Virus record (IMG/VR): IMGVR_UViG_3300010160_000125 | Span: 1-35,151 of that record | Direction: 5' to 3' (one strand) | DNA: 35,151 nucleotides | Origin: a virus | Shown here: in pieces, positions 1,807 through 15,824 of the stretch | How positions within the stretch are numbered: position 1 is the stretch's first letter | Layout: each line of letters starts with the position of its first letter | Notes under the pieces: model-generated | Database searches by the model: none | What the model was told of the DNA's origin: nothing | The model's input: the letters and a program-made list of their open reading frames with translations, nothing else | Position numbers and translations under genes: made by a program

Positions 1807-2634
1807 ATGAGTGTTATGAGAACTCACGCTCTACAAAGGAGAATCAACTTGAGCAAACGAAAAACCAGCGCATTAAGAAGTACAGACACAAGGTTTTCAC
1901 ACAGTAAAAAGACAGACGGAAATACATTCTATTCAAGAGAGTCAAAAACTATCGATTTCACACAAGCAACTCAAAAACCAAGAGTACGCAGACCCGTAGA
2001 ACTCATCCCCAAATCCATTAATCAAGAAAAATACATATTAGCATTACTTGATGAGAAGACAGATATAGTCGTGGTTTCGGGACCTGCAGGAACAGGGAAA
2101 ACGTATCTTGCTATGCAAGCCGCTATCAAAGCAATGCGAAACGGTGATTGTGATAGGATTATCTTATCTAGACCGGCGGTTGGTGTTGATGATGAAAAAC
2201 ACGGTTTCTTACCGGGAGATATCAATCAAAAGATGGAACCCTGGACTAGACCATTGTTAGATGTATTACGTGAGTATTATTCAACTAAAGAAATTGCTGA
2301 CATGCTAGAAGAACAAATAGTAGAGATAGCTCCGCTAGCGTTCTGTAGAGGTCGCAACTTTAAAAATAGTTGGGTAGTTCTTGATGAGGCTCAGAACGCC
2401 ACCCCAAGCCAGTTAAAAATGATTATGACACGTATCGGTATCGGTAGTAAAATTGTCATCACTGGTGATGTAGAACAAACAGATAGACGCACGCCTGAGA
2501 ACGGGCTCCTAGACTTACTAAGTAGGCTAGATGGTGGGAAGGGGGTGATTCCAGGCTTAGCGTCTTGCAAGTTCGATATGCGTGACATACAACGTCACAA
2601 AATTATTGAACACATCCTCAAGATGTATTCATAA
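1807..2634 (+). CDS. phoH: PhoH-like P-loop ATPase
   Basis: This 275-residue protein belongs to the PhoH family, ATPases common in T4-like phages whose role in infection is unsettled. The Walker A motif GPAGTGKT is at residues 92-99 and Walker B VVLDEAQN at 190-197, followed by the conserved stretch NATPSQLKM. The first 60 residues are basic and poorly conserved-looking. The start is uncertain. ATG 1807 and ATG 1816 have no clear ribosome site. TTG at 1849 (residue 15) has AGGAG with 7 bases spacing and would give a 261-residue protein. The gene is divergent from the minus-strand gene at 1679, convergent with the next gene, and alone on its strand here. Two palindromes sit just upstream and a strong shared terminator just downstream. 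Confidence 0.93.
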   Translation: MSVMRTHALQRRINLSKRKTSALRSTDTRFSHSKKTDGNTFYSRESKTIDFTQATQKPRVRRPVELIPKSINQEKYILALLDEKTDIVVVSGPAGTGKTYLAMQAAIKAMRNGDCDRIILSRPAVGVDDEKHGFLPGDINQKMEPWTRPLLDVLREYYSTKEIADMLEEQIVEIAPLAFCRGRNFKNSWVVLDEAQNATPSQLKMIMTRIGIGSKIVITGDVEQTDRRTPENGLLDLLSRLDGGKGVIPGLASCKFDMRDIQRHKIIEHILKMYS

Positions 2635-2660
2635 AAATAAGGGGCCTTGCCCCTTATTTT
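2634..2660. terminator. Bidirectional rho-independent terminator
   Basis: A perfect 11-bp stem (AAAATAAGGGG pairs with CCCCTTATTTT) surrounds a 5-base loop. It is flanked by A-rich and T-rich tracts, so it can work in both directions. It separates phoH from the convergent minus-strand operon and overlaps the stop codon of the latter. Confidence 0.9.
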
Positions 2661-3559
2661 ATTTCCCAATCTATTACAGTAGATGTTGCTATCATTTGTC
2701 TGAAATTATTAAGATCAATTAGTGACGTAGGAATTTTAATTTCTTTTCCATCGACTATAATTGTGTTAATTTTACCTATCTTACAATAGCCAAATGCTAA
2801 AGTTGGATCGTTTATGTCCAACTTCCAAAAATCTATTCCACCCCTATCAATATAAAACTTCTTCCATCTATTAATGTATTGTATTTTTGTAATATCATTG
2901 AAGAAGTTATCCACTAAATAAAGTCTACAGCTAGCATTAAATTTTCGTTGCGGTACAAATTGTTCCGGCGGACATTCAAAATCATTTACAGTGAATAATT
3001 CTATTGCGTGTTTACCTACATGTGTGTAATGAAGTGATAAATCTCCAAATGAATTAAACGGAGTAAACAATTTGTAGGCAGATTCAGGTATATCATACGA
3101 TTCAAATACGGTTTTATTAAAATCTAACGCAACTCTAAACAAGCTAGATTCTGATGCCATTTTAGAAGACCATACATTTAATAACACAGACTCCAACCAA
3201 TGTATGATATCATTGTACTCAGTCAACAACGGCCATGCTTCTTGATATTTAGGATCGTTTTTCATCTCAGGAAAATGCACATGCATTATATGAAGTGCCA
3301 CTTTCCATGTAGCTTGGTTGATATCCTGTTTCACAACACGGGTATTATCATACTGATTTATCTTATCAGCAAGCTCATACAATCTTTGAATTCTACTATT
3401 AATTAATTCTTCACTTCCATAACCAGTATAATGATTTATCTTACATAGTTCTGAAGTATTGCGTTTAACAATAAGGTTAGCCCATTGCTGGGCTATTTCT
3501 TCATCAATCAAATCATATATTATTGATATATCATTTGTAAAGTTAATTACAAATTGCAT
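2654..3559 (-). CDS. Unknown protein, end of replication operon
   Basis: This 301-residue protein has no recognised catalytic motif. The N-terminal half is helical-looking and charged. The second half carries a GDLSLHYTHVGKHAIELF segment followed by PQRKF, a pattern I associate with uncharacterised proteins of T4-like aquatic phages. It is the last gene of the overlapping operon that includes the gp44-type clamp loader; its ATG overlaps the preceding stop by one base. The clamp-loader small subunit gp62 would be expected near here, but length (301 against about 187 residues) and content do not resemble it. It ends at the shared terminator. I do not assign a function. Confidence 0.75.
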   Translation of the reverse strand: MQFVINFTNDISIIYDLIDEEIAQQWANLIVKRNTSELCKINHYTGYGSEELINSRIQRLYELADKINQYDNTRVVKQDINQATWKVALHIMHVHFPEMKNDPKYQEAWPLLTEYNDIIHWLESVLLNVWSSKMASESSLFRVALDFNKTVFESYDIPESAYKLFTPFNSFGDLSLHYTHVGKHAIELFTVNDFECPPEQFVPQRKFNASCRLYLVDNFFNDITKIQYINRWKKFYIDRGGIDFWKLDINDPTLAFGYCKIGKINTIIVDGKEIKIPTSLIDLNNFRQMIATSTVIDWEIK

Positions 3560-3828
3560 TATGATTTTTCATTTTGAGAAATTAACGCTTCTTTTTCTAA
3601 TTGCTCAATCAAATTAGGATATACTTTTTTATAATAAGCATCCATACGTTCAAAATCAGTATCTACCACCTTACCCTCGATAACACATTTTAGTACCTTC
3701 TTCTGAGCATAGTCAATAATAACGTTGCAGGTTTGTAGGTCCGCGGGCTTAACTTTTTTACCAACAGCAACTAGTTCATCAATTTGACCACCGGCTTTCC
3801 TCATAAATGTTATAAGTAAATATCTCAT
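3559..3828 (-). CDS. Small conserved T4-like phage protein beside clamp loader
   Basis: This 89-residue soluble protein is alpha/beta-like. The start RYLLITFMRKAGGQIDEL reads as a strand-turn-strand, followed by KVKPADLQTCNVI and a helical, charged C-terminus. I recall similar small proteins directly downstream of gene 44 in T4-like cyanophages, though without known function. Its ATG overlaps the clamp-loader stop by 4 bases (ATGA), so the two are probably made together. A link to replication is inferred from this coupling only. Confidence 0.75.
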   Translation of the reverse strand: MRYLLITFMRKAGGQIDELVAVGKKVKPADLQTCNVIIDYAQKKVLKCVIEGKVVDTDFERMDAYYKKVYPNLIEQLEKEALISQNEKS

Positions 3829-4751
3829 GATGTTAACTCTACTAATGTTGCTGCTAGTGAGATTTCAGCTATTCCAACTAGAGGTAGATTTGCTAAACCA
3901 TTACGAATGATAATGATACTTGCGTCTTTCTTTTCTTGATCCTTACCCCACAGATCCAAATTTTGGTACATCCATTTGTAGCAGTCTTCTACATGACTTG
4001 GATACATAGAAATATATTGCATCAATTGCTGACGACCATCAAGTACTTTGCCTGCTTTAAAGAGTTGAACTGCTTCCATTAATAATTCATTTTCATCTGA
4101 ACCACCTGTTGGTGCTGGTTGCAATTTACCATCAATACAATTAACTTGAAGTTGATTCAATACTTTACGTAAATCAGGATAACAAGCACGAACATAATTA
4201 TCTAATACATCTAAATCAAAATCAATATTTTCTGTTAGTAAAACAGTTGCTGCACGTGCCGTAAAGTCAGTATGATCTGGCTTGCTGATGTGAATCTTGT
4301 GACAACGACTTTCACGCAATGCTGGAATGATTTTCTCAGGATAGTTACAAGTGAGAATGAATCGTACTGTGTCTGAATATGTTTCCATATCAGTACGCAA
4401 TGCTGCCTGTGTTAAGTGAGGTAATGAGTCAGCTTCGTCTAATAAAACAACTTTAAACTTACCGAAAGGTAATGTTTGTGCAAATGACAATAGCTTATCA
4501 CGAACCAAATCAATTTGACGTTCACGACTTGCGTTAATAACCATTACATCATAGTCTTCTACACCAAGTTCTTTGATTAAGACTTTAGCAAGTGTAGTCT
4601 TACCTGTACCAGGATCACCGCTGAACAACAAGTGAGGGATGATACCATCTTTGATCCATTGTTCTGCTTGTGATTTGACTCGTTCATCAGTGAACACATA
4701 ATCATTGATACTGTTAGGGCGATACTTTTCTACCCAAAGTTGATTTATCAT
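3825..4751 (-). CDS. gp44: Sliding clamp loader large subunit, gp44-like AAA+ ATPase
   Basis: This 308-residue AAA+ ATPase matches T4 gp44 in length (319) and motifs. In T4 this subunit, with gp62, opens and loads the gp45 clamp onto primed DNA for the gp43 polymerase. The N-terminal WVEKYRP is the classic clamp-loader box. Walker A is GDPGTGKTT (45-53), Walker B with the DEAD signature is LLDEAD (103-108), sensor 1 is around Asn136, and the SRC motif supplying the arginine finger is at 148-150. The C-terminal part is the collar-like helical region. gp62, gp45 and gp43 are not in this window. The gene overlaps both neighbours by 4 bases inside an operon led by the sigma70-type promoter at 6919-6947, in keeping with early or middle expression. 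Confidence 0.95.
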   Translation of the reverse strand: MINQLWVEKYRPNSINDYVFTDERVKSQAEQWIKDGIIPHLLFSGDPGTGKTTLAKVLIKELGVEDYDVMVINASRERQIDLVRDKLLSFAQTLPFGKFKVVLLDEADSLPHLTQAALRTDMETYSDTVRFILTCNYPEKIIPALRESRCHKIHISKPDHTDFTARAATVLLTENIDFDLDVLDNYVRACYPDLRKVLNQLQVNCIDGKLQPAPTGGSDENELLMEAVQLFKAGKVLDGRQQLMQYISMYPSHVEDCYKWMYQNLDLWGKDQEKKDASIIIIRNGLANLPLVGIAEISLAATLVELTS

Positions 4752-5032
4752 TTTCTTAACATTTCAAGTGTAATAACGTATGCAATACCCTGACCCAAGT
4801 CTTGGTCAGAACTAATGATATGCAGTGCGGTGTTATGTCTGTCAGACTTTTCATCATACATAGTATATTCCAAAACATAACCGCCATTGGCTTGATGAAT
4901 AGTAAAACTCATACCTCTGCTATCAAGTGTTCTGCCTCGACTAACAAGACTGTTCTTTGCTGAGGGTCTTGTCTCTGCAATGTCTTGAGGAAATATAAAG
5001 TTATGTAGTTTTTGTCTAATCCAATTTATCAT
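4748..5032 (-). CDS. Small unknown protein in replication operon
   Basis: This 94-residue protein has a basic N-terminus (INWIRQKLHNFIFP) followed by a likely beta-sheet part (SFTIHQANGGYVLEYTMYDE) and a short helix. It overlaps the clamp-loader start by 4 bases and the upstream gene stop by 4 bases, so it is translated as part of the operon. It has no cysteine clusters, membrane segment or known motif. Its function is unknown. Confidence 0.7.
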   Translation of the reverse strand: MINWIRQKLHNFIFPQDIAETRPSAKNSLVSRGRTLDSRGMSFTIHQANGGYVLEYTMYDEKSDRHNTALHIISSDQDLGQGIAYVITLEMLRK

Positions 5033-5652
5033 ATAAATCCATTTACTTGTTTAAATTTTTCATACTGACTTGATACATCTGTTTTTTCAAAGTTTAACCA
5101 TTCACACAGTTTGTCAAATTCAGTTAAAAAGGTGCCTTCTATGAAGTGACTAATGTTAAAATCATAGACGCCGTCTATTATATCATTATTTTTGATATTA
5201 GTGTAATAGATATCGGGAATATTTTTCAAAGGATGTTTTTTAATGGCCATATCCCTTACAATTTGATTGTATTTGTAGGGTATAGTAATCTTAATATATT
5301 TGGCTTTAGGTATGTGGTGTTTAATCAATTCAACTTGTTTGGGTAGTAATATTCTATGAACATAATGCAAATTAGAATTTAAAAACTCTTTAGGAGGCTC
5401 CCAATTTTTCTCAAGGTATGTTTTTTGCACTTCAGTTGTCGAGTTAGCCCATTCGTAAACTCTTGCGCCTGTATGAAAATCTAAGAAAAATTGTGTTATT
5501 TCATGATGAGCGGCACCGGATTCGTCAAAGAAAATATCTTTCTTGTTTTGTAGGAAGACACTAGTACTATATGATAAACAATGTAATAGAAAAGATCCAA
5601 AACTTCCCGGTACAAAATGTATGAATACTATTCTATCACTACCCTCAAGCAT
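5029..5652 (-). CDS. Possible sulfotransferase-fold protein
   Basis: This 207-residue protein opens with a hydrophobic strand and a glycine/serine loop (IVFIHFVPGSFGSFLLHCL, residues 8-26). This resembles the 5'-phosphosulfate loop of PAPS-dependent sulfotransferases (strand-PxSGTT-helix). A later segment (IPKAKYIKITIPYKYNQIVRDM) sits where the second, 3'-phosphate-binding strand and helix would be, and the C-terminal FLTEFDKLCEWLNFE resembles the terminal helix of that family. However, the usual Arg/Ser pair for 3'-phosphate binding is not obvious, so it may bind another ligand or be inactive. It overlaps its neighbours by 4 bases and 1 base. A role modifying phage or host glycans or small molecules would be speculation. 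An unrelated fold is quite possible. Confidence 0.45.
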   Translation of the reverse strand: MLEGSDRIVFIHFVPGSFGSFLLHCLSYSTSVFLQNKKDIFFDESGAAHHEITQFFLDFHTGARVYEWANSTTEVQKTYLEKNWEPPKEFLNSNLHYVHRILLPKQVELIKHHIPKAKYIKITIPYKYNQIVRDMAIKKHPLKNIPDIYYTNIKNNDIIDGVYDFNISHFIEGTFLTEFDKLCEWLNFEKTDVSSQYEKFKQVNGFI

Positions 5653-6029
5653 TAATACACCTTATCACTCATTGTTTCATCATCCATTGGATTATCCGAT
5701 ATCAACAGTATATCATTACTATCAACTTTACGCAATGTTTCTTCACCCAAAGGGGTTTCAACCGTAATACCGCGAGTCCAACGACCATGTGCAATTAAGA
5801 TATATTTTCCAATCTCAAGTTGAGGGTCATTCTGTTCAGGACCTAGACCATAAATCTTTGCCCAACGTGGACGAATACCAGCACTTTTCTTGTCATCATC
5901 CATTAGAATAATACCACCTTGCGTAATACGTTGGTCAAACTTCATATCAGACACAATTATATCTTTGTGTAGAAATGTCAGTTTATCTACTTTAGTAGGA
6001 CTGAATGCCGGCTTACTATATTCGCTCAT
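5652..6029 (-). CDS. GroES/gp31-like co-chaperonin
   Basis: This 125-residue protein reads as a GroES-fold co-chaperonin, the lid that closes the host GroEL chamber. In T4 the analogous gp31 is needed to fold the major capsid protein. The mobile loop is visible as RITQGGIIL (residues 34-42); its last three residues correspond to the IVL tripeptide of GroES that contacts GroEL. It is followed by a beta-barrel pattern (RPRWAKIYGLGPEQ, then LEIGKYILIAHGRW), matching the GroES spacing of loop, barrel strand and K-V-G-D-type turn. It is longer than GroES (97 residues) and near gp31 (111). It overlaps the downstream gene by one base and the upstream gene by 4 bases. GroES identity is inferred from pattern, not alignment. 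Confidence 0.75.
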   Translation of the reverse strand: MSEYSKPAFSPTKVDKLTFLHKDIIVSDMKFDQRITQGGIILMDDDKKSAGIRPRWAKIYGLGPEQNDPQLEIGKYILIAHGRWTRGITVETPLGEETLRKVDSNDILLISDNPMDDETMSDKVY

Positions 6030-6394
6030 TTTTCACCTTTTTTGAGTTCTTCTGCTTTGATCTTTTCAATTTCAACATCATCTTCAAAAGATTCTTCTAA
6101 CTCACGCTCACTTGAAGTAAGTTCTTCTAATGGGATATCAGGTTTAGCAACTTCAGATTTTGCTTGTTGACTCGCGTGTTGCTGGCGAACTTGATTTGCG
6201 GACCGTGTTCCTACTGTATTAGCATATGATTGATTAACCCTTTCGGTTACGGGTTTAATAACTCTTCCAAATGCATCAATAGTGTCCCCACGTGCATTTA
6301 CCTTCATGTTACCTACCGCTTTAGTATTTTCATTTTTGGCAATAATTGATGCCATATCTACTGTCTTACCCATTGCTGTTCTGTAATTTGTCAT
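6026..6394 (-). CDS. Conserved T4-like phage protein, unknown function
   Basis: This 122-residue protein is probably largely disordered. The N-terminal TNYRTAMGKTVDMASIIAKN and the following GNMKVNARGDTIDAFGRVI are stretches I recall as conserved in T4-like cyanophages. The middle is Gln/Ser/Ala-rich and the C-terminus alternates Glu and Lys. It lies 11 bases after the Pol III-like fragment and overlaps the co-chaperonin start by 4 bases. The function is unknown, and a DNA-replication or assembly role cannot be told apart. Confidence 0.75.
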   Translation of the reverse strand: MTNYRTAMGKTVDMASIIAKNENTKAVGNMKVNARGDTIDAFGRVIKPVTERVNQSYANTVGTRSANQVRQQHASQQAKSEVAKPDIPLEELTSSERELEESFEDDVEIEKIKAEELKKGEK

Positions 6395-6405
6395 TTCATT
6401 TTTCC

Positions 6406-6912
6406 TTATTTAATAAACTCATCTATAGACAAGTCATAGTACAAGCTATTTATTTTATGTATGCCGAGTAAAAACAATATAAAACTTGCTACGCTTGACC
6501 CGCGACCTACTCCCCAAACTATGTTATTCTTACGCATTGTATCTACTAAATACTTTAAGTATTTAAGTAATATAAACATATCACGATCCTGAAACAATAT
6601 CAACTCTTCGCCTGCTCGTTGTAGTTCTTGATCGGTGCTGCACTGGTCTAAAATGTATTGAGCAATGTCTAACTTATAATATTCGTTAGGCATTAACCAA
6701 TGACTTTGATTCTTTTCATCAAATTGATTGATTGAACAATTATCACTGGTGTATTTAATACACTCAGGGATATATTCTAGTTGCAAAACTTCATCAAATT
6801 TAATTTCATCAGTTACAAACACACGCTTTAGATTACGTGATGGGTCTTGTAAGTATAACAAACACAATTCCATCTCATCATAGATTTGTTGACCATAAAC
6901 ATCTGTTCTCAT
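6406..6912 (-). CDS. Orphan DNA polymerase III alpha-like fragment
   Basis: The C-terminal 70 of 168 residues match the first part of the bacterial Pol III alpha (DnaE) palm domain: a helix (EELILFQDRDMFILLKYLKYL), then VWGVGRGSSVASFILFLLGI (133-151, compare VGPGRGSxAGSLVAYxLGI) and a tail equivalent to LDPLxYDLLFERFLN. The protein stops exactly where DnaE continues to its catalytic Asp-x-Asp. It therefore has no catalytic aspartates, PHP domain, fingers or beta-binding motif. The first 98 residues are not recognised. The ATG is 7 bases after the -10 of a strong sigma70 promoter, so the message may be leaderless. First gene of the replication operon. It could be a nucleotide- or DNA-binding accessory protein, a polymerase mimic, or a relic. 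I find no frame disruption. Confidence 0.75.
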   Translation of the reverse strand: MRTDVYGQQIYDEMELCLLYLQDPSRNLKRVFVTDEIKFDEVLQLEYIPECIKYTSDNCSINQFDEKNQSHWLMPNEYYKLDIAQYILDQCSTDQELQRAGEELILFQDRDMFILLKYLKYLVDTMRKNNIVWGVGRGSSVASFILFLLGIHKINSLYYDLSIDEFIK

Positions 6913-6918
6913 TAACTA

Positions 6919-6947
6919 AGTATAACAGAATTAATGTAGTGTGTCAA
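6919..6947 (-). promoter_or_regulatory. Near-consensus sigma70 promoter for replication operon
   Basis: On the minus strand TTGACA (6947-6942), a 17-bp spacer and TATACT (6924-6919) form a -35/-10 pair with one mismatch from consensus. It overlaps the stop of the upstream structural-type gene and points into the operon 6912 to 2654. This indicates expression by host RNA polymerase early in infection. Confidence 0.85.
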
Positions 6948-7198
6948 GAGTTTTTACTGCCAACTTCGCCCTCTTTTTGAACTTTCACAGCAGACTGGAG
7001 GTTTTGTTTTTTGAACATCTCATCCATTTTCTTATTGTATTCGGATTTGTAGCTTTCTATGACCATTCCAATTTGATGGATCATGGGGCCGTTTTGCATA
7101 CGATATGCAAAACTTAATTTTTTGGTTAAGTCTGATATGGTGTTAGACAAGTCTTCCATAGACTTGTCTGATAGATTACCAATAAAAGGATGTTGCAT
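6944..7198 (-). CDS. Small conserved T4-like phage protein
   Basis: This 84-residue helical protein contains HPFIGNLSDKSMEDL at the start and a long amphipathic helix (LTKKLSFAYRMQNGPMIHQIGMVIESY). I associate this pattern with small proteins of T4-like cyanophages near structural genes. The C-terminus is charged and probably disordered. An AATAAATA late-type box ends 4 bases before the ATG, leaving only TAGG as leader. It is the last gene of the virion block before the early operon promoter. Function unknown; a virion-associated role is inferred from position and promoter type. Confidence 0.75.
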   Translation of the reverse strand: MQHPFIGNLSDKSMEDLSNTISDLTKKLSFAYRMQNGPMIHQIGMVIESYKSEYNKKMDEMFKKQNLQSAVKVQKEGEVGSKNS

Positions 7199-7202
7199 CC
7201 TA

Positions 7203-7210
7203 TATTTATT
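7203..7210 (-). promoter_or_regulatory. T4-like late promoter box AATAAATA
   Basis: Minus-strand AATAAATATAGG runs straight into the ATG at 7198 and overlaps the stop codon of the upstream gene. The first base differs from the T4 consensus TATAAATA. A start 6 bases after the box would fall one base inside the ATG, so the transcript would be leaderless or very short. Confidence 0.5.
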
Positions 7211-8999
7211 ACCAATTGTTCAACTGGGTTCTTTTCCAGATACTAGTGCCTTCATACACAGTAACCGCAATGTTTCCATTTGCCGTAGACAATGCCATCT
7301 TTTGCCCTGCTATACCACTATATCTTGTTTGGGATATAGTGATGTTACCGCTATCTTCAATACTAGATATGTAGTACACTATGTTAGCAGTTATCCCACC
7401 AAATGTGTTTCCCAAGAATACAATTGGATCATTGCTTGCAATGTTACTTGTACTTGACAATGTTAGATTATAATCGGTAGTTGCAGTAACTTGCATTGAT
7501 CCGTTTTCATTCAATAATGCAACAGGGGCGCCGCCCGGATTGTTTGCACATACAGTGAATGCTGTGCTGTTTGCAATACTTTGCACAAAGTAATTTGTAC
7601 TAGCATTTAAGTTACCCATAATATTACCGTAACTAGCAACACAATTACCAGTATCATTTGTCAATCCTAAATTGCCTCCACCAAATGTCGCACTAACTGC
7701 AATATTTGAGTTACCTGTGAATATATTTTTAATGTAATATGTTGAATTTGCTATGTTACCAAAAACATTACCACTAAACGCTACCCTGCCACCTACTACC
7801 ATATTTGTAGTCGTTGACACAGTAATAACATTACCAGTTGCATAAGTTGCAGTAGCATATGCATTAGCAATAGTACCAGTAATCAGTACTGGATATCCAA
7901 CAACAAAATTTTCTGTGCTAGATACAATAATTGCGTTTCCACTAGCTAACGTGTTAGTAGAAGTAACAGTATTGGTTACCGCGGTAGTATTAGTTAAATA
8001 TTTAGGTATTGCACTACCTTCATATGATCCGGTAGCTACGTACATATAACTTACAGGTGATACGGTCATTGTACCACTGGTGCTAGACACATTGAATAAA
8101 GCAGCCGGGCCTGAAGCAGTGCCAGGTGTTGCTGATATAGTAAATGTTGTGGTGCTTGGAATACTACGTACATAGTAAACTGTACCTGCTGTTACTCCAC
8201 CAAACACAACCCCTGAGAATTGAATTGGCATATCTAGATAAAATCCTGCAGTACTATCACAGGTTACAATTTCATAGGTACCATCAGTTGCAGTACACGT
8301 AGCAAATGCCAATGATGTTGCAGTATCAATGCAGACGGTACCATTTACATCACCTTGAAATCCTACTGGGCTAGGTGTTCTTTGTTGAATTTGAGTTGAC
8401 TGTCTTGGTCTGTTGTATGGTTCAACAGTAATTGTTGTTCCGCAGTCAACTGAACTGAATCTAAAGTCCATTTGACTAACTCCGTATGGTACGGTTATTA
8501 CTGGTACATTGGCCACGTTAGCAAAATTCTCTATAGTAGTTACACCATACTGATTGGTAACGCTGCTAGGGAATGAAATAGTAGCATTAGCATTTGAAAT
8601 TGCTAATTCTAGTTGAACATTACTTTGAGTACCTGCTGGCGCCCAACCAGTAAATTGAATAGTTGTATTTCCAACAATAGAACCGTATTGTACATCACCT
8701 AAACTTGCGTTAACAGTCATTATACCTGATATAGCATTACCCAAGTTATAAGTAGTTGCTCTGAAGCCACGTGTTAATGTATTACTGAGTAATGTGTTAG
8801 CCATATCATTATTCAGTGTCATACCTGGTAAGGCTGATTTCAGTATAGCATTATTTTGTAGGTTAGTAATTTCACTAGCCGCAGTATTTAAATCTGTTCT
8901 AATAACAGAGAAATTATCTCTGAATCCTTGACTACTATTGTTTACACCCGGTACAGGGTAGTTAACATTAATTCCATTTGTATTGATTGCGCTTGTCAT
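7209..8999 (-). CDS. Virion structural protein with repeated beta modules
   Basis: This 596-residue protein begins with a segment I associate with T4-like cyanophage structural proteins (NGINVNYPVPGVNNSSQGFRD, residues about 8-28), followed by a heptad-like stretch and a beta-rich domain to about residue 200. From about 235 to the C-terminus it carries roughly four copies, some degenerate, of a module built as I-V-x-S-T-x-x-F-x-x-G-x-P-V-x-F-S-G, then F-G-x-I/V-x-x-x-x-x-Y-Y-V, then T-x-F-T-I-S and a glycine turn. The same module occurs in the 827- and 456-residue proteins of this window. This suits a trimeric fibre, baseplate decoration or adhesion protein on the virion surface. A TATAAATA box lies 19 bases before the ATG and GGAAT is a weak ribosome site. 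Confidence 0.8.
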   Translation of the reverse strand: MTSAINTNGINVNYPVPGVNNSSQGFRDNFSVIRTDLNTAASEITNLQNNAILKSALPGMTLNNDMANTLLSNTLTRGFRATTYNLGNAISGIMTVNASLGDVQYGSIVGNTTIQFTGWAPAGTQSNVQLELAISNANATISFPSSVTNQYGVTTIENFANVANVPVITVPYGVSQMDFRFSSVDCGTTITVEPYNRPRQSTQIQQRTPSPVGFQGDVNGTVCIDTATSLAFATCTATDGTYEIVTCDSTAGFYLDMPIQFSGVVFGGVTAGTVYYVRSIPSTTTFTISATPGTASGPAALFNVSSTSGTMTVSPVSYMYVATGSYEGSAIPKYLTNTTAVTNTVTSTNTLASGNAIIVSSTENFVVGYPVLITGTIANAYATATYATGNVITVSTTTNMVVGGRVAFSGNVFGNIANSTYYIKNIFTGNSNIAVSATFGGGNLGLTNDTGNCVASYGNIMGNLNASTNYFVQSIANSTAFTVCANNPGGAPVALLNENGSMQVTATTDYNLTLSSTSNIASNDPIVFLGNTFGGITANIVYYISSIEDSGNITISQTRYSGIAGQKMALSTANGNIAVTVYEGTSIWKRTQLNNW

Positions 9000-9013
9000 A
9001 TTTGTAATTCCGT

Positions 9014-11497
9014 TTAATATTTATACTGATTCTCATTCGGCAAAATTGTTTGTCTTGGGAATAAAACATAAAAATCTTTACTGTTTAATGGGTCAGGAGT
9101 AGGTGACGCACTAGGTAAGCTAGTCCAACTTGCAGGGCTTGTGTTATTGTCATAGTTATAAGTTGCACTCTTATCTACACTGAATCGATCAATTTCAAAA
9201 TTTATTTGATTCAATGTAAATTGCCAATTGTTTTCTATGTTAGACTTAATAGTCTCACTAAACCCTGGTTTTGTGTAGCATATAACCCAAGCAGGTACGT
9301 ATCCAGTGGTACTACCATTAGCTTGTTGACTAGTCATCCATAATGGTAATAGTTTGCTGTTATATTCTTGACCAACCACTGACGCGACTTGATTACGCAT
9401 GTTAGGTAGACTATTAGGGTATAATAATCTAGCATATCCCGGTGTTAAACTTGTATAATAATCTTGACCCAATTGATTTATCCAACTAGCATGAATACTA
9501 GTACTGCTTGTATACCAAGGACCTTTACCTAAATCAATCAATCTAGGCCAGTATATTTCACTTTGAATACTTACACCTTGTGGATTAATCAAGTTATCTA
9601 TCACTTCACTATATACAACTTCGTAAAGTATGTTTCCCGCATCGTCTTTTGCAACAGCAGTTTTTAATTCACCAAGAGTAATGTTTCTCCAATAGTGATT
9701 CTTTGTGATTGCTTGTAAATATTGTTGGATAGCACTTGCATAGATACCATAAGCATGTTCATATATAACACTGGTTGCTTTACCAAAATATTGATCTCCA
9801 CTGCGATACAAATAGTCAGTTGGTATCAATGTTTCATTGTCTAGTAATGTGGCAAGAATATTTCTGTCAGTAGTTGATGGTGTTGCTTTAATATATAATG
9901 TGTCCGTTGGTTGTCCAAATTCTTGTAGTACACTAACTGTGAATGTTTTATAAGAGTTAACTGATAGGAATTTTTCTGAATATGCTTCAACAGTAAAGGT
10001 ATAACTTGAAGTGTCACCCACATTCAAATATTTGTTTGTGGGCTGATCTGCAACTCTACCAACTATCTCACCGTTACTAGCAACTGACAAGTTAGGTGGT
10101 AATGCACCGTTTGTTAATCTGTAAGATAGTTCTACATCACTAACTGCTTTGACAAACAATGTGCTGATGTTTCCATTCAATATTTGTCCTAAATTACTAT
10201 CACTTAGCCAATCAATAACACCAGTAACATTCTTTTGTAGATTAAATGTAAAGTTAAAATAAGGACTTGCATAGTATGTTGCACCTGTTTTGTACACACT
10301 TACGCTGAAATTATAATTACTTACACCGTCTGTAGTTAGTGCAGGGTAACCGGTGATCCATCCTGTTTGAGTATTACCGGTTAATCCATTAGGCAAATTA
10401 GCAAAACTGTATGCAATAGGATTGCTATCAAAGTCTTTACCTATTATTTTAAATGCAAAATATTCACCACTCTTAAAATTACCCATGTTAGCAAACTGTG
10501 TAGGAGCAATAGGTGGCAAGATGTAGTATCCATAGTATGGATCACTGTTATGTAGATTGTATGTAAGTGGACGAGTGTTTAGTATTACAGGTAATCTGCT
10601 GTTGACTGGTTTGCCAGGCCCACCCTGGTTAACCGGTGTATTTTGATTTATAACTGTAATAGAGTAACTAGCCAATGCATTTCCTAATGGACTTGTTAAG
10701 CCCAATGTAAAATTATATGTTCGTATTGTTGGATTACCTACAGACACCGCCGGCAATGTTACTGTCATTGATCCACTACCGTTCACTAAGAAAAAAGTAG
10801 AACCATTCTGTGTGACACTGATAGTAAATGTAGTTGATGAAAGTATAGCTCTTACATAATATACTTGACCTGCTACAAGATCACCAAATACTGTTCCACT
10901 GAAAACAACCGGTCTTCCTGGATAAAATCCTATAGTTGATGTAACAAGAATAGTATTATTTGCGCTACTTGTTTGTGTAGAATTTGTAATGACCGACGGA
11001 TCAGTTAACGTAACTATCGGTGGTTGAGCATATCCTCTAATAACACCCAATGAATCAATTTCTAGTCCAGGAGGTAATGCACCTTCTCTAAGTTGAATAA
11101 TTACAGGATTATTAGTCTCTGGATTACGATATGTGATTGGATATTGAACCCATATACTGTCTTGTGTACTTAGTATGCTACCATTTGGAGTTGTAAATTG
11201 TGGGATTGCTGATCCAGAAATAATCAATGAAAAGGTTCTGTCTCTAATATTTCCATTGTTGTCAGTTATTCTGACTACGAACGTGCTAGATGTGTCACCT
11301 GTTACGATTCCAGGAGTGCCACTTAGTAACCCAGATGAATTTAATGTTATACCTGTAGGTATTAATCCGCTCAACAATGTATAAGTAATTGATGTTGCCG
11401 GCAATACGGCTGAAGCAGAAAATTCAAACAATAAAGGTAGTGACGCAGGGTAACTACCTATTGATCCTGCAGGGGTATTCCATACTGGTTGTGACAT
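9014..11497 (-). CDS. Large virion protein with Ig/cadherin-like repeats
   Basis: This 827-residue protein begins with putative Ig-like (He_PIG-type) domains: YTLLSGLIPTGITLNSSGLL-SGTP at about 40-62 and again LREGALPPGLEIDSLGVIRG at about 138-157, with further LPNGLTGNTQTGWITGYP and LPPNLSVASNGEIVGR units. The shared module FYPGRPVVFSGTVFGDL...YYVRAI...TFTIS lies near residues 191-235. The C-terminal 280 residues are different, Tyr/Trp-rich and globular-looking, perhaps the virion-attachment or assembly part. The ribosome site is AGGA. One base separates it from the endolysin gene. I infer a tail or baseplate-associated adhesion or structural protein; the exact position in the virion is unknown. 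Confidence 0.8.
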   Translation of the reverse strand: MSQPVWNTPAGSIGSYPASLPLLFEFSASAVLPATSITYTLLSGLIPTGITLNSSGLLSGTPGIVTGDTSSTFVVRITDNNGNIRDRTFSLIISGSAIPQFTTPNGSILSTQDSIWVQYPITYRNPETNNPVIIQLREGALPPGLEIDSLGVIRGYAQPPIVTLTDPSVITNSTQTSSANNTILVTSTIGFYPGRPVVFSGTVFGDLVAGQVYYVRAILSSTTFTISVTQNGSTFFLVNGSGSMTVTLPAVSVGNPTIRTYNFTLGLTSPLGNALASYSITVINQNTPVNQGGPGKPVNSRLPVILNTRPLTYNLHNSDPYYGYYILPPIAPTQFANMGNFKSGEYFAFKIIGKDFDSNPIAYSFANLPNGLTGNTQTGWITGYPALTTDGVSNYNFSVSVYKTGATYYASPYFNFTFNLQKNVTGVIDWLSDSNLGQILNGNISTLFVKAVSDVELSYRLTNGALPPNLSVASNGEIVGRVADQPTNKYLNVGDTSSYTFTVEAYSEKFLSVNSYKTFTVSVLQEFGQPTDTLYIKATPSTTDRNILATLLDNETLIPTDYLYRSGDQYFGKATSVIYEHAYGIYASAIQQYLQAITKNHYWRNITLGELKTAVAKDDAGNILYEVVYSEVIDNLINPQGVSIQSEIYWPRLIDLGKGPWYTSSTSIHASWINQLGQDYYTSLTPGYARLLYPNSLPNMRNQVASVVGQEYNSKLLPLWMTSQQANGSTTGYVPAWVICYTKPGFSETIKSNIENNWQFTLNQINFEIDRFSVDKSATYNYDNNTSPASWTSLPSASPTPDPLNSKDFYVLFPRQTILPNENQYKY
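9018..9025 (-). promoter_or_regulatory. T4 late promoter box TATAAATA
   Basis: A perfect match to the T4 late consensus on the minus strand, 19 bases before the ATG at 8999. It lies inside the last codons of the upstream gene, where it encodes Tyr-Lys-Tyr. A start 6 bases downstream gives a leader of about 13 bases with GGAAT as ribosome site. Confidence 0.6.
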
Positions 11498-12128: not shown

Positions 12129-15100
12129 TTATCCATATGTCGCCAATAAGCGTGAGCCGGTGCCTAAACTAAAGTTACCGGTAATTGTACCCACTGTTAT
12201 GTTTGAACCAGTAGTAAATGCATTACCTATAAAAGTTGCACCTGTACCACCTATGTTAGCAGTTGTTGTTATGTTACCAGTAGCACTCAATGTTGTATAG
12301 ATACCATTGTTAGCACCTATGTTACCGACGTTAGCATTACCTGTCACACTTAAACTTGCTAATGTACCAACTGCGGTAATATTAGCCTGACTATTAGCTG
12401 TTACTGTAACTGCTGTTGTTGCACTAGACACTGTACCTGATACATTTGCACCTGCCACTGCGTTTGCAGTCGTTGCAAATGATACTGCACCGGAGACGTT
12501 GCCACCTGCTACACTATTAGCTGTTGTTGCATATGTAGCTAATCCTACAGCTCCTGAGACGTTGCCACCTGCTACTGCATTTGCTGTTGTTGCAAAAGCT
12601 ACTGCTCCACTTACATTAGCACCTGCTACACTATTTGCTGTTGCTGCATATGTAGCAAGACCTGCTGTTGCTACTGATAAGTTAGAAACTTGAGTAGTAG
12701 ATGATACTACAAACGGAGCAGTACCGGTCGCTACAGTAGTAATGTATTGTCCGGTGATGTTTGATGTAGTGCCGGTGTGGTTAGTGGCAGATATGTTGCC
12801 TGCAGTGACGTTTCCGGATATACTTAATGAAGTCAATGTGCCAACACTTGTAATGTTACCTTGTGCGGCTGTTGTTACAGTACCGGCTGTAGTTGCAGTT
12901 CCTGCACTAGTTGCATATGTAGCATTTGCTACAGTCCCACTTACATTAGCACCTGCCACTGCATTAGCTGTTGTTGCATATGTAGCTAATCCAACAGCAC
13001 CGGTTACATTTGCACCTGCTACACTATTAGCAGTAGTTGCATAAGCGACAGCACCTGAGACGTTTCCACCTGCTACACTATTAGCTGTTGTTGCATAAGC
13101 GACAGCACCTGAGACGTTTCCACCTGCTACACTATTAGCTGTTGTTGCATAAGCGACAGCACCTGAAACATTAGCACCCGTAATAGAACTTAACGTTGAG
13201 CCGTTACCTGACACATTAGTAAACACACCAAATGTGGCCCCGATGTTACCAACGTTTGCATTACCAGTAATACTTAACGTACCGGTAATGCTTGTGTTAC
13301 CTGCATTTAATGTACCATTGGCAGCAGTAGCTCCGTCAATTCTTAATCCAGTTAAATATCCTAAACTGGTAATGTTGGGTTGTGCCGCAGTAGACAATGT
13401 ACCTACAATATTGTTGGCACCAATGTTGCCAACGTTAGCATTACCTGACACTGATAATGTACCAGTGATTGCTAATTGTGGATCATTGAATTTAATATTA
13501 CTACTAGCATCTATAGCGTTTGCACCACTACTGTATAACAACGCATTTGCTGCACCAGGAATAGTTTGACTAATAACTGATGCAAACGATAAATTACCAT
13601 TACCATCACTTTGCAAGAAACCTGTACTACCTGTTATTTTAATATTACTAACAGAACCTAAATTAGCAAGACCATTAACAGACAACCCAGTTAATGTGCC
13701 TATACTAGTAATATTTGGTTGAGCATTAGATCCGCTTGATAATGTACCTGCTAGTGATCCATTACTTAGTATAGAGTTTGCAATGATTGTACCTGAAACA
13801 TACATTTGTGCTGATGTTAGTATTAGTACATCAGGTGTTCCGTTAACACCCATTGTAATATTACCATTTGGGTTAGTAATATCAACATTACTATTACCAT
13901 TAACAATACTGTCAACCACAATGTTACCGGCTGTTAAATTACCTGTTACTGAAAGATTACCTAAGGTAACATTACCAGTAACACTCAATGTTCCACTTGT
14001 TATTAAGTTACCACCTTGAATATTACCAGTGGCAGTGATTAAACCACCTGTACCAATATTTCCAATATTTGCATTACCTGAAACAGAAATAGATGTTAGT
14101 GTACCTGTACTTGTGATATTTGGTTGTGCTGTTGTTGTTACTGTACCTGCTGTAGTTGCACTAGACACGGTGCCAGATACATTAGCACCTGCTACACTAT
14201 TTGCTGTCGTTGCGAATGATACGGCACCTGTAACATTAGCGCCGGTAATAGAACTCAATGCTGAACCATTTCCACTAACATTAGTGAATATACCTTGGGT
14301 TGCACTTATGTTACCAACGTTTGCATTACCTGATACTGACAGACTTGTTAATATACCAGTACTTGTAATATTAGGCTGTGCTGCTGTAGTCAATGTACCA
14401 GTTACTAATGTGAATACTGCGTTATTGGCACCTATATTACCAACGTCAGCATTACCGGTTGCAGTAATGATGCCAGTACCCAAATTGCCAATGTTTGCAT
14501 TACCACTTACACTCAAGCTCGTTAGTGTACCTGTACTTGTTATATTTGGTTGTGCATTAGTTGTGACGGTACCTGATGTAGTTGCAGAACCAGCAGTACC
14601 TGCGCTAGTTGCATATGTTGCATTTGCTACAGTTCCGCTTACATTAGCACCTGCAACACTATTTGCTGTTGCGGCATAATTGACTTGACCAGATACGTTG
14701 GCCCCTGCAACACTATTTGCTGTTGCGGCATAATTGACTTGACCAGATACGTTGGCCCCTGCAACACTATTTGCTACGTTGGCAAAATTCACTTGTCCGG
14801 ACACGTTAGCACCTGCTACACTATTTGCTGTTGTTGCAAATGCAACTGCTCCTGAGACGTTGGCACCTGCTACGGCATTGGCAGTCGTAGCATATGAGAC
14901 GGAACCCGTGACATTGGAACCTGTAATAGAACTCAATGCTGAACCATTTCCACTAACATTAGTGAATATACCCTGTGTTGCACCTATGTTACCAACGTTT
15001 GCATTACCTGACACTGATAATGAAGTTAGTGTTCCGGTACTGGTTATATTAGATTGTGCGGCTGTTGTTAATGAGCCCGTTACAGTAGTGAACACGCCTG

Positions 15101-15824
15101 CGGCTGCTCCTATATTACCTACATTAGCATTACCGGTTGCACTAATTACACCTCCGGTTACTAGATTACCACCATGAACATTACCAGTAGCAGTAATTAA
15201 TCCTGCAGTGCCAATATTACCTACATTAGCATTGCCCGAGACAGATATAGAAGTTAATGTGCCAGTACTTGTTATATTTGGTTGTGATGCAACTAGCACA
15301 GTGTTTGATGTACCAGCTGATAATGCGTAAGTTGCGTTTGCTACAGTTCCGCTTACATTAGCACCTGCAATATTTGTTAAGTTTGCACCGCTGCCTATGA
15401 AATAATTTGCTGATGCTGCATTACCTAAATTTGCATTAGCTGATATAAGATTACCACCTATGTTTGCGCTACCGGTGACTATTAAGTTTGCTAATGTTAC
15501 TGTAGTAGGTAGTTCTATATAAAGAGTTTGTGCAAAAGTAGTATATGTAGCAGCGTTAGTGATTGGATTAGGGGTTGTTCCTATTTTAAGTGTTGATGAA
15601 CTGAATGAAACAGATGCGATGTTGGCGCTGACAACAACATTACCAGTTGGAGAATTAACAGTAATACCAGCGCCGGCTGATCGGTTAACAGAACTTACAG
15701 AAGCACTAGTAAGTCCGTTGTATACTTCATTAAAATTTTCTTGTACTTTTTGGAATGCTATTCGTATTGGATCCGCTGACGGATCATCAGGAAACGTACC
15801 AAAATCTATATTTTGTTGACTCAT
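12129..15824 (-). CDS. Giant repetitive tail fibre protein
   Basis: This 1231-residue protein is built almost wholly from short repeats. The N-terminus (NIDFGTFPDDPSADPIRIAF, then QKVQENFNEVYN) resembles attachment domains of T4-like fibres. Next come units such as GNGSALSSITGANVTG and ISVSGNANVGNIGA, and arrays of an 18-residue repeat, consensus SVAGANVSGAVAFATTAN, in four clusters near residues 296-408, 523-561, 878-975 and 1048-1131. The total is about 18 to 20 units. Such glycine/asparagine/valine repeats are typical of trimeric beta-helical fibres. No recognisable receptor-binding tip or intramolecular chaperone follows; the C-terminus is FSLGTGSRLLATYG. The repeats are partly identical in DNA, so copy number may change by recombination. 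A GATAAATA late box lies 20 bases before the ATG. Confidence 0.88.
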   Translation of the reverse strand: MSQQNIDFGTFPDDPSADPIRIAFQKVQENFNEVYNGLTSASVSSVNRSAGAGITVNSPTGNVVVSANIASVSFSSSTLKIGTTPNPITNAATYTTFAQTLYIELPTTVTLANLIVTGSANIGGNLISANANLGNAASANYFIGSGANLTNIAGANVSGTVANATYALSAGTSNTVLVASQPNITSTGTLTSISVSGNANVGNIGTAGLITATGNVHGGNLVTGGVISATGNANVGNIGAAAGVFTTVTGSLTTAAQSNITSTGTLTSLSVSGNANVGNIGATQGIFTNVSGNGSALSSITGSNVTGSVSYATTANAVAGANVSGAVAFATTANSVAGANVSGQVNFANVANSVAGANVSGQVNYAATANSVAGANVSGQVNYAATANSVAGANVSGTVANATYATSAGTAGSATTSGTVTTNAQPNITSTGTLTSLSVSGNANIGNLGTGIITATGNADVGNIGANNAVFTLVTGTLTTAAQPNITSTGILTSLSVSGNANVGNISATQGIFTNVSGNGSALSSITGANVTGAVSFATTANSVAGANVSGTVSSATTAGTVTTTAQPNITSTGTLTSISVSGNANIGNIGTGGLITATGNIQGGNLITSGTLSVTGNVTLGNLSVTGNLTAGNIVVDSIVNGNSNVDITNPNGNITMGVNGTPDVLILTSAQMYVSGTIIANSILSNGSLAGTLSSGSNAQPNITSIGTLTGLSVNGLANLGSVSNIKITGSTGFLQSDGNGNLSFASVISQTIPGAANALLYSSGANAIDASSNIKFNDPQLAITGTLSVSGNANVGNIGANNIVGTLSTAAQPNITSLGYLTGLRIDGATAANGTLNAGNTSITGTLSITGNANVGNIGATFGVFTNVSGNGSTLSSITGANVSGAVAYATTANSVAGGNVSGAVAYATTANSVAGGNVSGAVAYATTANSVAGANVTGAVGLATYATTANAVAGANVSGTVANATYATSAGTATTAGTVTTAAQGNITSVGTLTSLSISGNVTAGNISATNHTGTTSNITGQYITTVATGTAPFVVSSTTQVSNLSVATAGLATYAATANSVAGANVSGAVAFATTANAVAGGNVSGAVGLATYATTANSVAGGNVSGAVSFATTANAVAGANVSGTVSSATTAVTVTANSQANITAVGTLASLSVTGNANVGNIGANNGIYTTLSATGNITTTANIGGTGATFIGNAFTTGSNITVGTITGNFSLGTGSRLLATYG
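13021..13169. repeat. Tandem 54-bp repeat inside fibre gene
   Basis: Units at 13021-13074, 13075-13128 and 13129-13169 (partial) are spaced by exactly 54 bp and nearly identical; the first differs at two positions and the third diverges near its end. They encode the 18-residue unit SVAGGNVSGAVAYATTAN. The low divergence suggests recent duplication. Confidence 0.9.
14651..14775. repeat. Second tandem 54-bp repeat in fibre gene
   Basis: Two units, 14651-14704 and 14705-14758, are identical over 54 bp, followed by a partial third to about 14775. They encode SVAGANVSGQVNYAATAN. They share the protein repeat, but not the exact DNA, of the array near 13100, so the two arrays were amplified independently. 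Confidence 0.9.

Follow-up and report, generated by a model that had tools for sequence, protein, structure and literature searches.

A DNA polymerase III alpha fragment in a viral replication operon corresponds to the N-terminal half of a split gene pair

The 35,151-nucleotide viral stretch of IMG/VR record IMGVR_UViG_3300010160_000125 (termed here the window, meaning the whole stretch of DNA analysed) carries on its minus strand an intact frame of 168 codons (6912-6406), the product of which resembles the bacterial replicase DNA polymerase III alpha (Pol III alpha) and ends ahead of the catalytic aspartates. What such a protein could do in a phage lineage that uses a family B polymerase is the question raised by this locus. 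The sequence-only reading had expected the family B enzyme, which is present in 9/9 related records and was not seen in the 35-kb fragment, and had regarded the 168-residue protein as an out-of-place bacterial replicase fragment. The latter view has to be replaced: the gene is instead the N-terminal half (N-half) of a two-gene Pol III alpha typical of a T4-type jumbo-phage lineage. For jumbo phages of group 2.2, Iyer et al. (2021; PMC7824862) describe the minimal Pol III alpha as two proteins encoded by distant genes, comprising an NTP-binding N-terminal part (PHROG 11127) and a Mg- and template-binding C-terminal part (PHROG 11778), and suggest a reconstituted enzyme; no test of this prediction was found in the literature. 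The window gene matches PHROG 11127 and thus represents the N-half of this previously described split, for which co-occurrence, exact tiling and invariant catalytic residues add independent support. The two features of the gene are:

6406..6912, minus strand: 168-residue N-half of the split minimal Pol III alpha, PHROG 11127, part of PF07733 (homology and predicted structure)
6493..6507, minus strand: GRGSS codons for residues 136-140, a nucleotide-binding turn of the Pol beta type (translation; alignment columns invariant)

The N-half matches Pfam PF07733 (E=1.1e-8, above the curated cut-off), PHROG 11127 "DNA polymerase" over residues 39-168 (E=3.5e-40) and several NCBIfam Pol III alpha models, including TIGR00594 at 6e-6, and its homology to Pol III alpha is not due to chance. 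A search of PDB sequences with the single protein returned noise only, and a profile was required for alignment. With a profile of 14 relatives, residues 94-168 correspond to residues 381-455 of Thermus Pol III alpha and residues ~98-168 to 323-393 of the E. coli protein. Residues 70-168 cover the Pol III alpha stretch extending from before the palm to the loop that precedes the catalytic strand, the last ~100 residues of the N-half constituting the first part of the palm. The catalytic Asp triad is not in the chain, as the ORF ends before it; taking the E. coli catalytic Asp residues to be 401 and 403, the N-half stops ~8 residues ahead of the first. The GRGSS columns are invariant in alignments A2 (14 rows) and A4, although A4 members were selected by this motif and independent support is confined to the 14 rows of A2; its presence in 157/157 N-halves is likewise partly circular, because ORF picking demanded it. 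Pol III alpha uses the GRGSS turn to contact the triphosphate of an incoming nucleotide. The length, the GRGSS position, the end just before the catalytic Asp and the assignment to a DnaE palm segment, all proposed by the sequence-only reading, are borne out by translation, profile alignment and the family and structural matches, and nucleotide binding, which it had also raised, is plausible.

The missing catalytic part was not found in the window and is a separate gene in relatives, such that the designation "orphan" holds only within these 35 kb. Weak profile matches in phages Phosso and GAP32 pointed to ORFs of 191 and 216 residues that begin with TDIDIDF, continue with K-V/M-D and then FKK-x-HA, in the order seen in DnaE, and match PHROG 11778 "DNA polymerase". 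This C-terminal half (C-half) of ~190 residues starts at the catalytic DxDxD strand and includes the third Asp and the finger helix. All of 100 C-halves keep D6, D8, D10, K69, D71, R139 and H171 unchanged, a pattern in favour of retained metal-dependent catalysis; the alignment of the DxDxD motif with E. coli D401/D403/D405 carries an uncertainty of two residues in register.

N- and C-halves occur together. Of 20 records with an N-half, 16, including all four complete named genomes, also gave a C-half when searched with a profile built from two C-half sequences; the other four are fragments of 84-114 kb. Among 50,697 phage records, 58/58 with an N-half at E<=1e-12 also carry a C-half, the C-half matches totalling 63; the hypergeometric value for this co-occurrence ignores relatedness and is not readable as a probability. 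The five further C-half records comprise the complete phages Slicko01 and RAS14, in which an N-half was detected by profile, Slickus01 and CM1, which closely resemble these two and were not searched for the N-half, and one unverified 109-kb record. The halves lie 11-315 kb apart across genomes. The closest relative is G005, with 76% identity in the N-half, and it has its C-half at 65.5 kb and its N-half at 109.5 kb; the partner, 44 kb upstream of the N-half in that record, is therefore expected past the right end of the window.

The predicted structures of the two halves tile Pol III alpha. AlphaFold2 models presented a pLDDT of 89.8 for the N-half, falling to 67 at residues 131-140 around GRGSS, and of 93.5 for a C-half (L293). 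Foldseek ranked Pol III alpha first for both models, and the N-half falls on the DnaE palm in the overlay that the sequence-only reading had proposed. Structural alignment (VIA-align) placed N-half residues 70-168 on E. coli alpha 277-393 (Z of 8.8 and rmsd of 2.7 over 96 aligned residues), Thermus 296-455 (Z of 8.4 and rmsd of 2.7 over 96 residues) and 5lew 305-413 (Z of 10.5 and rmsd of 2.5 over 92 residues). C-half residues 1-193 were placed on E. coli alpha 397-781 (Z of 8.8 and rmsd of 3.7 over 182 residues), Thermus 459-841 (Z of 9.1 and rmsd of 3.7 over 181 residues) and 5lew 417-808 (Z of 8.8 and rmsd of 3.8 over 188 residues), while unrelated folds fall to a Z of 3.6 in the C-half comparison. 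The modelled halves are thus adjacent without overlap, with the break in the same loop of all three references. A stretch of ~385 residues in E. coli alpha is represented by 193 in the C-half, so that the thumb and roughly half the fingers are gone. The PHP and C-terminal domains are also absent from the pair, and neither half matches a PHP family.

The N-half is a conserved gene and not a remnant. At least 593 relatives are present in IMG/VR, and in 157 intact ORFs the C-terminus is nearly always (E)F[LI][KR], with 98/157 being exactly 168 residues long. Median dN/dS is 0.096 for the N-half (44 pairs) and 0.10 for the C-half; both halves are under purifying selection and both have fixed ends, in agreement with the earlier expectation that the intact frame is functional. 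The gene order N-half, 122-residue gene, GroES-like gp31 and gp44, with PhoH divergent at the end, is kept, and similar orders were observed in cultured phages of Salicola, Pseudomonas, Cronobacter and Sinorhizobium. In the window the genes following the N-half are:

6026..6394, minus strand: 122-residue gene immediately 3' of the N-half, PHROG 14844 (present in 82/84 related loci)
5652..6029, minus strand: GroES-like co-chaperonin of T4 gp31 type, N-half operon (family match and kept gene order)
3825..4751, minus strand: T4 gp44-type clamp-loader ATPase, N-half operon (PHROG 168 at 9.7e-70 and kept gene order)

The PHROG 14844 protein, being encoded almost always directly 3' of the N-half, is a candidate interaction partner.

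The operon is preceded by a putative promoter close to the start codon:

6919..6947, minus strand: sigma-70-type promoter TTGACA-17-TATACT with extended -10 (11/12 consensus match)

This is the best of 21 promoter-like sites in 2500-9200, a region with no overall excess of such sites (mean of 30.6 in shuffles), and together with the conserved downstream order it agrees with the earlier description of the gene as first behind a strong promoter of a replication operon. Only 6 nt separate the end of the -10 element from the ATG at 6912, so that transcription is predicted to start on the A of this codon; there is no Shine-Dalgarno sequence, and an in-frame TAG lies two codons 5' of the ATG. The -10 element is at exactly the same place in 82 of 115 distinct upstream sequences of the clade, and the -35 as well in 73. 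Both elements hold this position at 73/115 N-half starts versus 0/123 C-half starts and 50/1283 other first-ATG ORFs, some of which may not be genes. Shine-Dalgarno-like 4-mers occur in 7/115 N-half upstream sequences versus 581/1283 of the other ORFs. This promoter position makes a leaderless mRNA the probable template for translation of the N-half in the window's clade. The N-half of PA5oct and that of Phosso stand directly behind the preceding gene, and the arrangement thus looks like a clade feature; in some relatives it recurs, ahead of a DnaJ-like gene at 13 loci and ahead of gp44 at 10. The titles and abstracts searched describe no such leaderless promoter for comparable jumbo phages.

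In the window's clade the C-half has a neighbour of its own, a 187-residue DexA-like 3'-5' exonuclease (PF16473 at 5.5e-33, PHROG 255) encoded upstream. It lies 5' of the C-half in 57/64 testable loci of this clade, with a 4-bp overlap in 30, which suggests translational coupling of the two frames. Two examples are:

L094:932-1495 and L293:941-1504: DexA-like (PF16473) exonuclease, 4-bp overlap with the C-half start

None of 75 testable Phosso-like loci has a DexA-like gene adjacent to the C-half. RNase T-type exonucleases are found near the C-halves of GAP32 and RAS14 and are not universal; a universal DnaQ/RNase T partner was rejected, as one was found in only 5/13 records.

In the mechanism that we propose, the N-half would supply the helices leading into the palm together with the GRGSS turn, while the C-half, encoded elsewhere, would supply DxDxD and the third Asp, holding two metal ions, and a reduced finger region. 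The two would fold against each other to give one complete Pol beta-like active site. It is likely that the halves assemble in this way into the single active site of a minimal family C nucleotidyltransferase, and DNA polymerase activity of the pair is slightly favoured. Lacking thumb, PHP, beta-binding and OB parts, the pair would work alongside the family B replicase as a non-processive, short-patch polymerase or nucleotidyltransferase, its action limited to short stretches because the thumb and clamp contacts are missing. Gap filling, lesion handling and primer extension are possible roles, with the DexA-like exonuclease as a likely partner in the window's clade. The complete proposal, namely a two-subunit, thumbless Pol III-type polymerase with its active site formed in trans, working alongside both a family B replicase and an exonuclease of DexA type, and with its nucleotide-binding subunit made, in one large clade, from a leaderless mRNA whose sigma-70 promoter is held in position relative to the start codon, is put forward tentatively, at slightly less than even confidence.

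Several observations weigh against the mechanism of two halves forming one active site. Homology, the fixed split point, co-occurrence, the conserved catalytic residues and the tiling of the predicted folds are directly supported, whereas the physical assembly, catalysis and biological role of the pair are what we infer from sequences and models. Outside PHROGs the sequence evidence for the C-half is weak (best Pfam match 0.0063). Neither a DIDID motif search nor the C-half profile revealed a C-half in the 35-kb window, and no fused or adjacent halves were present among the fetched loci. No N-half was found in the large IMG/VR C-half records G017 (290 kb), G019 (232 kb), G032 (201 kb) and G033 (191 kb), in a search where one sequence missed most N-halves, a profile did little better and PF07733 added some; these records (loci L118, L143, L307 and L309) may be incomplete or belong to a lineage with a different N-half. 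Where DnaE has the Arg of its FERF motif, the N-half carries a nearly invariant Glu (E165) and, considered with the loss of the thumb and half of the fingers in the models, this may mean that polymerase activity is altered or lost.

The same two changes also speak for an alternative in which the halves assemble without polymerising DNA, acting as a nucleotide sensor or as another nucleotidyltransferase (for example, in end-tailing or small-molecule transfer) that regulates the phage replisome, a role to which the conserved operon with the gp44 clamp loader and gp31 would also be suited. A pure sensor would have no need of the catalytic Asp residues, Lys69 and finger His171 that are invariant in 100 C-halves, and the DexA-like exonuclease adjoining the C-half in part of the family speaks against this explanation; we regard it as unlikely. 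Independent action of each half, the N-half as a nucleotide-binding or replisome-contact protein and the C-half as a separate metal-dependent enzyme, would be consistent with genes 11-315 kb apart and with models that are each confident by themselves. It is made improbable by the 58/58 co-occurrence, by the complementary active-site parts with near-gapless tiling, and by the drop in pLDDT to 67 along the GRGSS edge (residues 131-140), where a partner would be expected to pack. The absence of the catalytic part from the N-half could finally be read as decay or misassembly of a full polymerase gene. The same ends in 157 ORFs, dN/dS of about 0.1, at least 593 relatives and a dedicated promoter refute this reading, to which we assign a negligible probability. 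The sequence-only reading had named as counter-evidence a neighbouring fragment in related phages that would reveal a broken polymerase; the partner is instead distant, and both halves have fixed ends and are under purifying selection.

The split pair shares with bacterial DnaE the palm fold, GRGS, the catalytic Asp residues and the finger His, and totals ~360 residues, in contrast with the single DnaE chain of ~1100 residues with PHP, thumb, full fingers, beta-binding and OB parts. Phage CBB carries this N-half gene as CBB_328, whose 172-residue product was recorded as a truncated "DNA polymerase III alpha" (PMC5259590). For the marine jumbo phages of group PGC_A, the PF07733 marker (PMC9123017) is probably also the N-half; the accessible parts of these two papers do not identify the partner. 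Neither the leaderless N-half promoter nor the 4-bp overlap of the DexA-like gene with the C-half, both features of the window's clade, was found described before, and the accessible part of PMC7824862 does not describe them. Record G004, from a T4-type phage, encodes an unsplit, PHP-less Pol III alpha-like protein of 559 residues (L086:6890-8569) with a family C palm and fingers, which, unlike the split pair, are kept in one chain, and which coexists with both halves. Its PF07733 match was considered as the missing partner and rejected, as G004 has its own C-half. The gene is near that of the family B polymerase, giving three polymerase systems in one phage. Elsewhere in the window, positions 12129-15824 (minus strand) encode a 1231-residue protein built from numerous short repeats (VAGANVSGxV and similar ones), which is probably a fibre; the long antisense ORFs across it resemble composition artefacts.

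If the halves assemble, they would constitute a family C polymerase core of very small size, with about a third of the length of DnaE, and would reveal what Pol III alpha can lose without losing nucleotidyl transfer. Apart from this, the predicted leaderless promoter is a regulatory feature that lends itself readily to testing. The N-half gene marks a very common jumbo-phage lineage, and a role of the pair beside a family B replicase bears on how DNA is replicated and repaired in phages with genomes of 350-500 kb.
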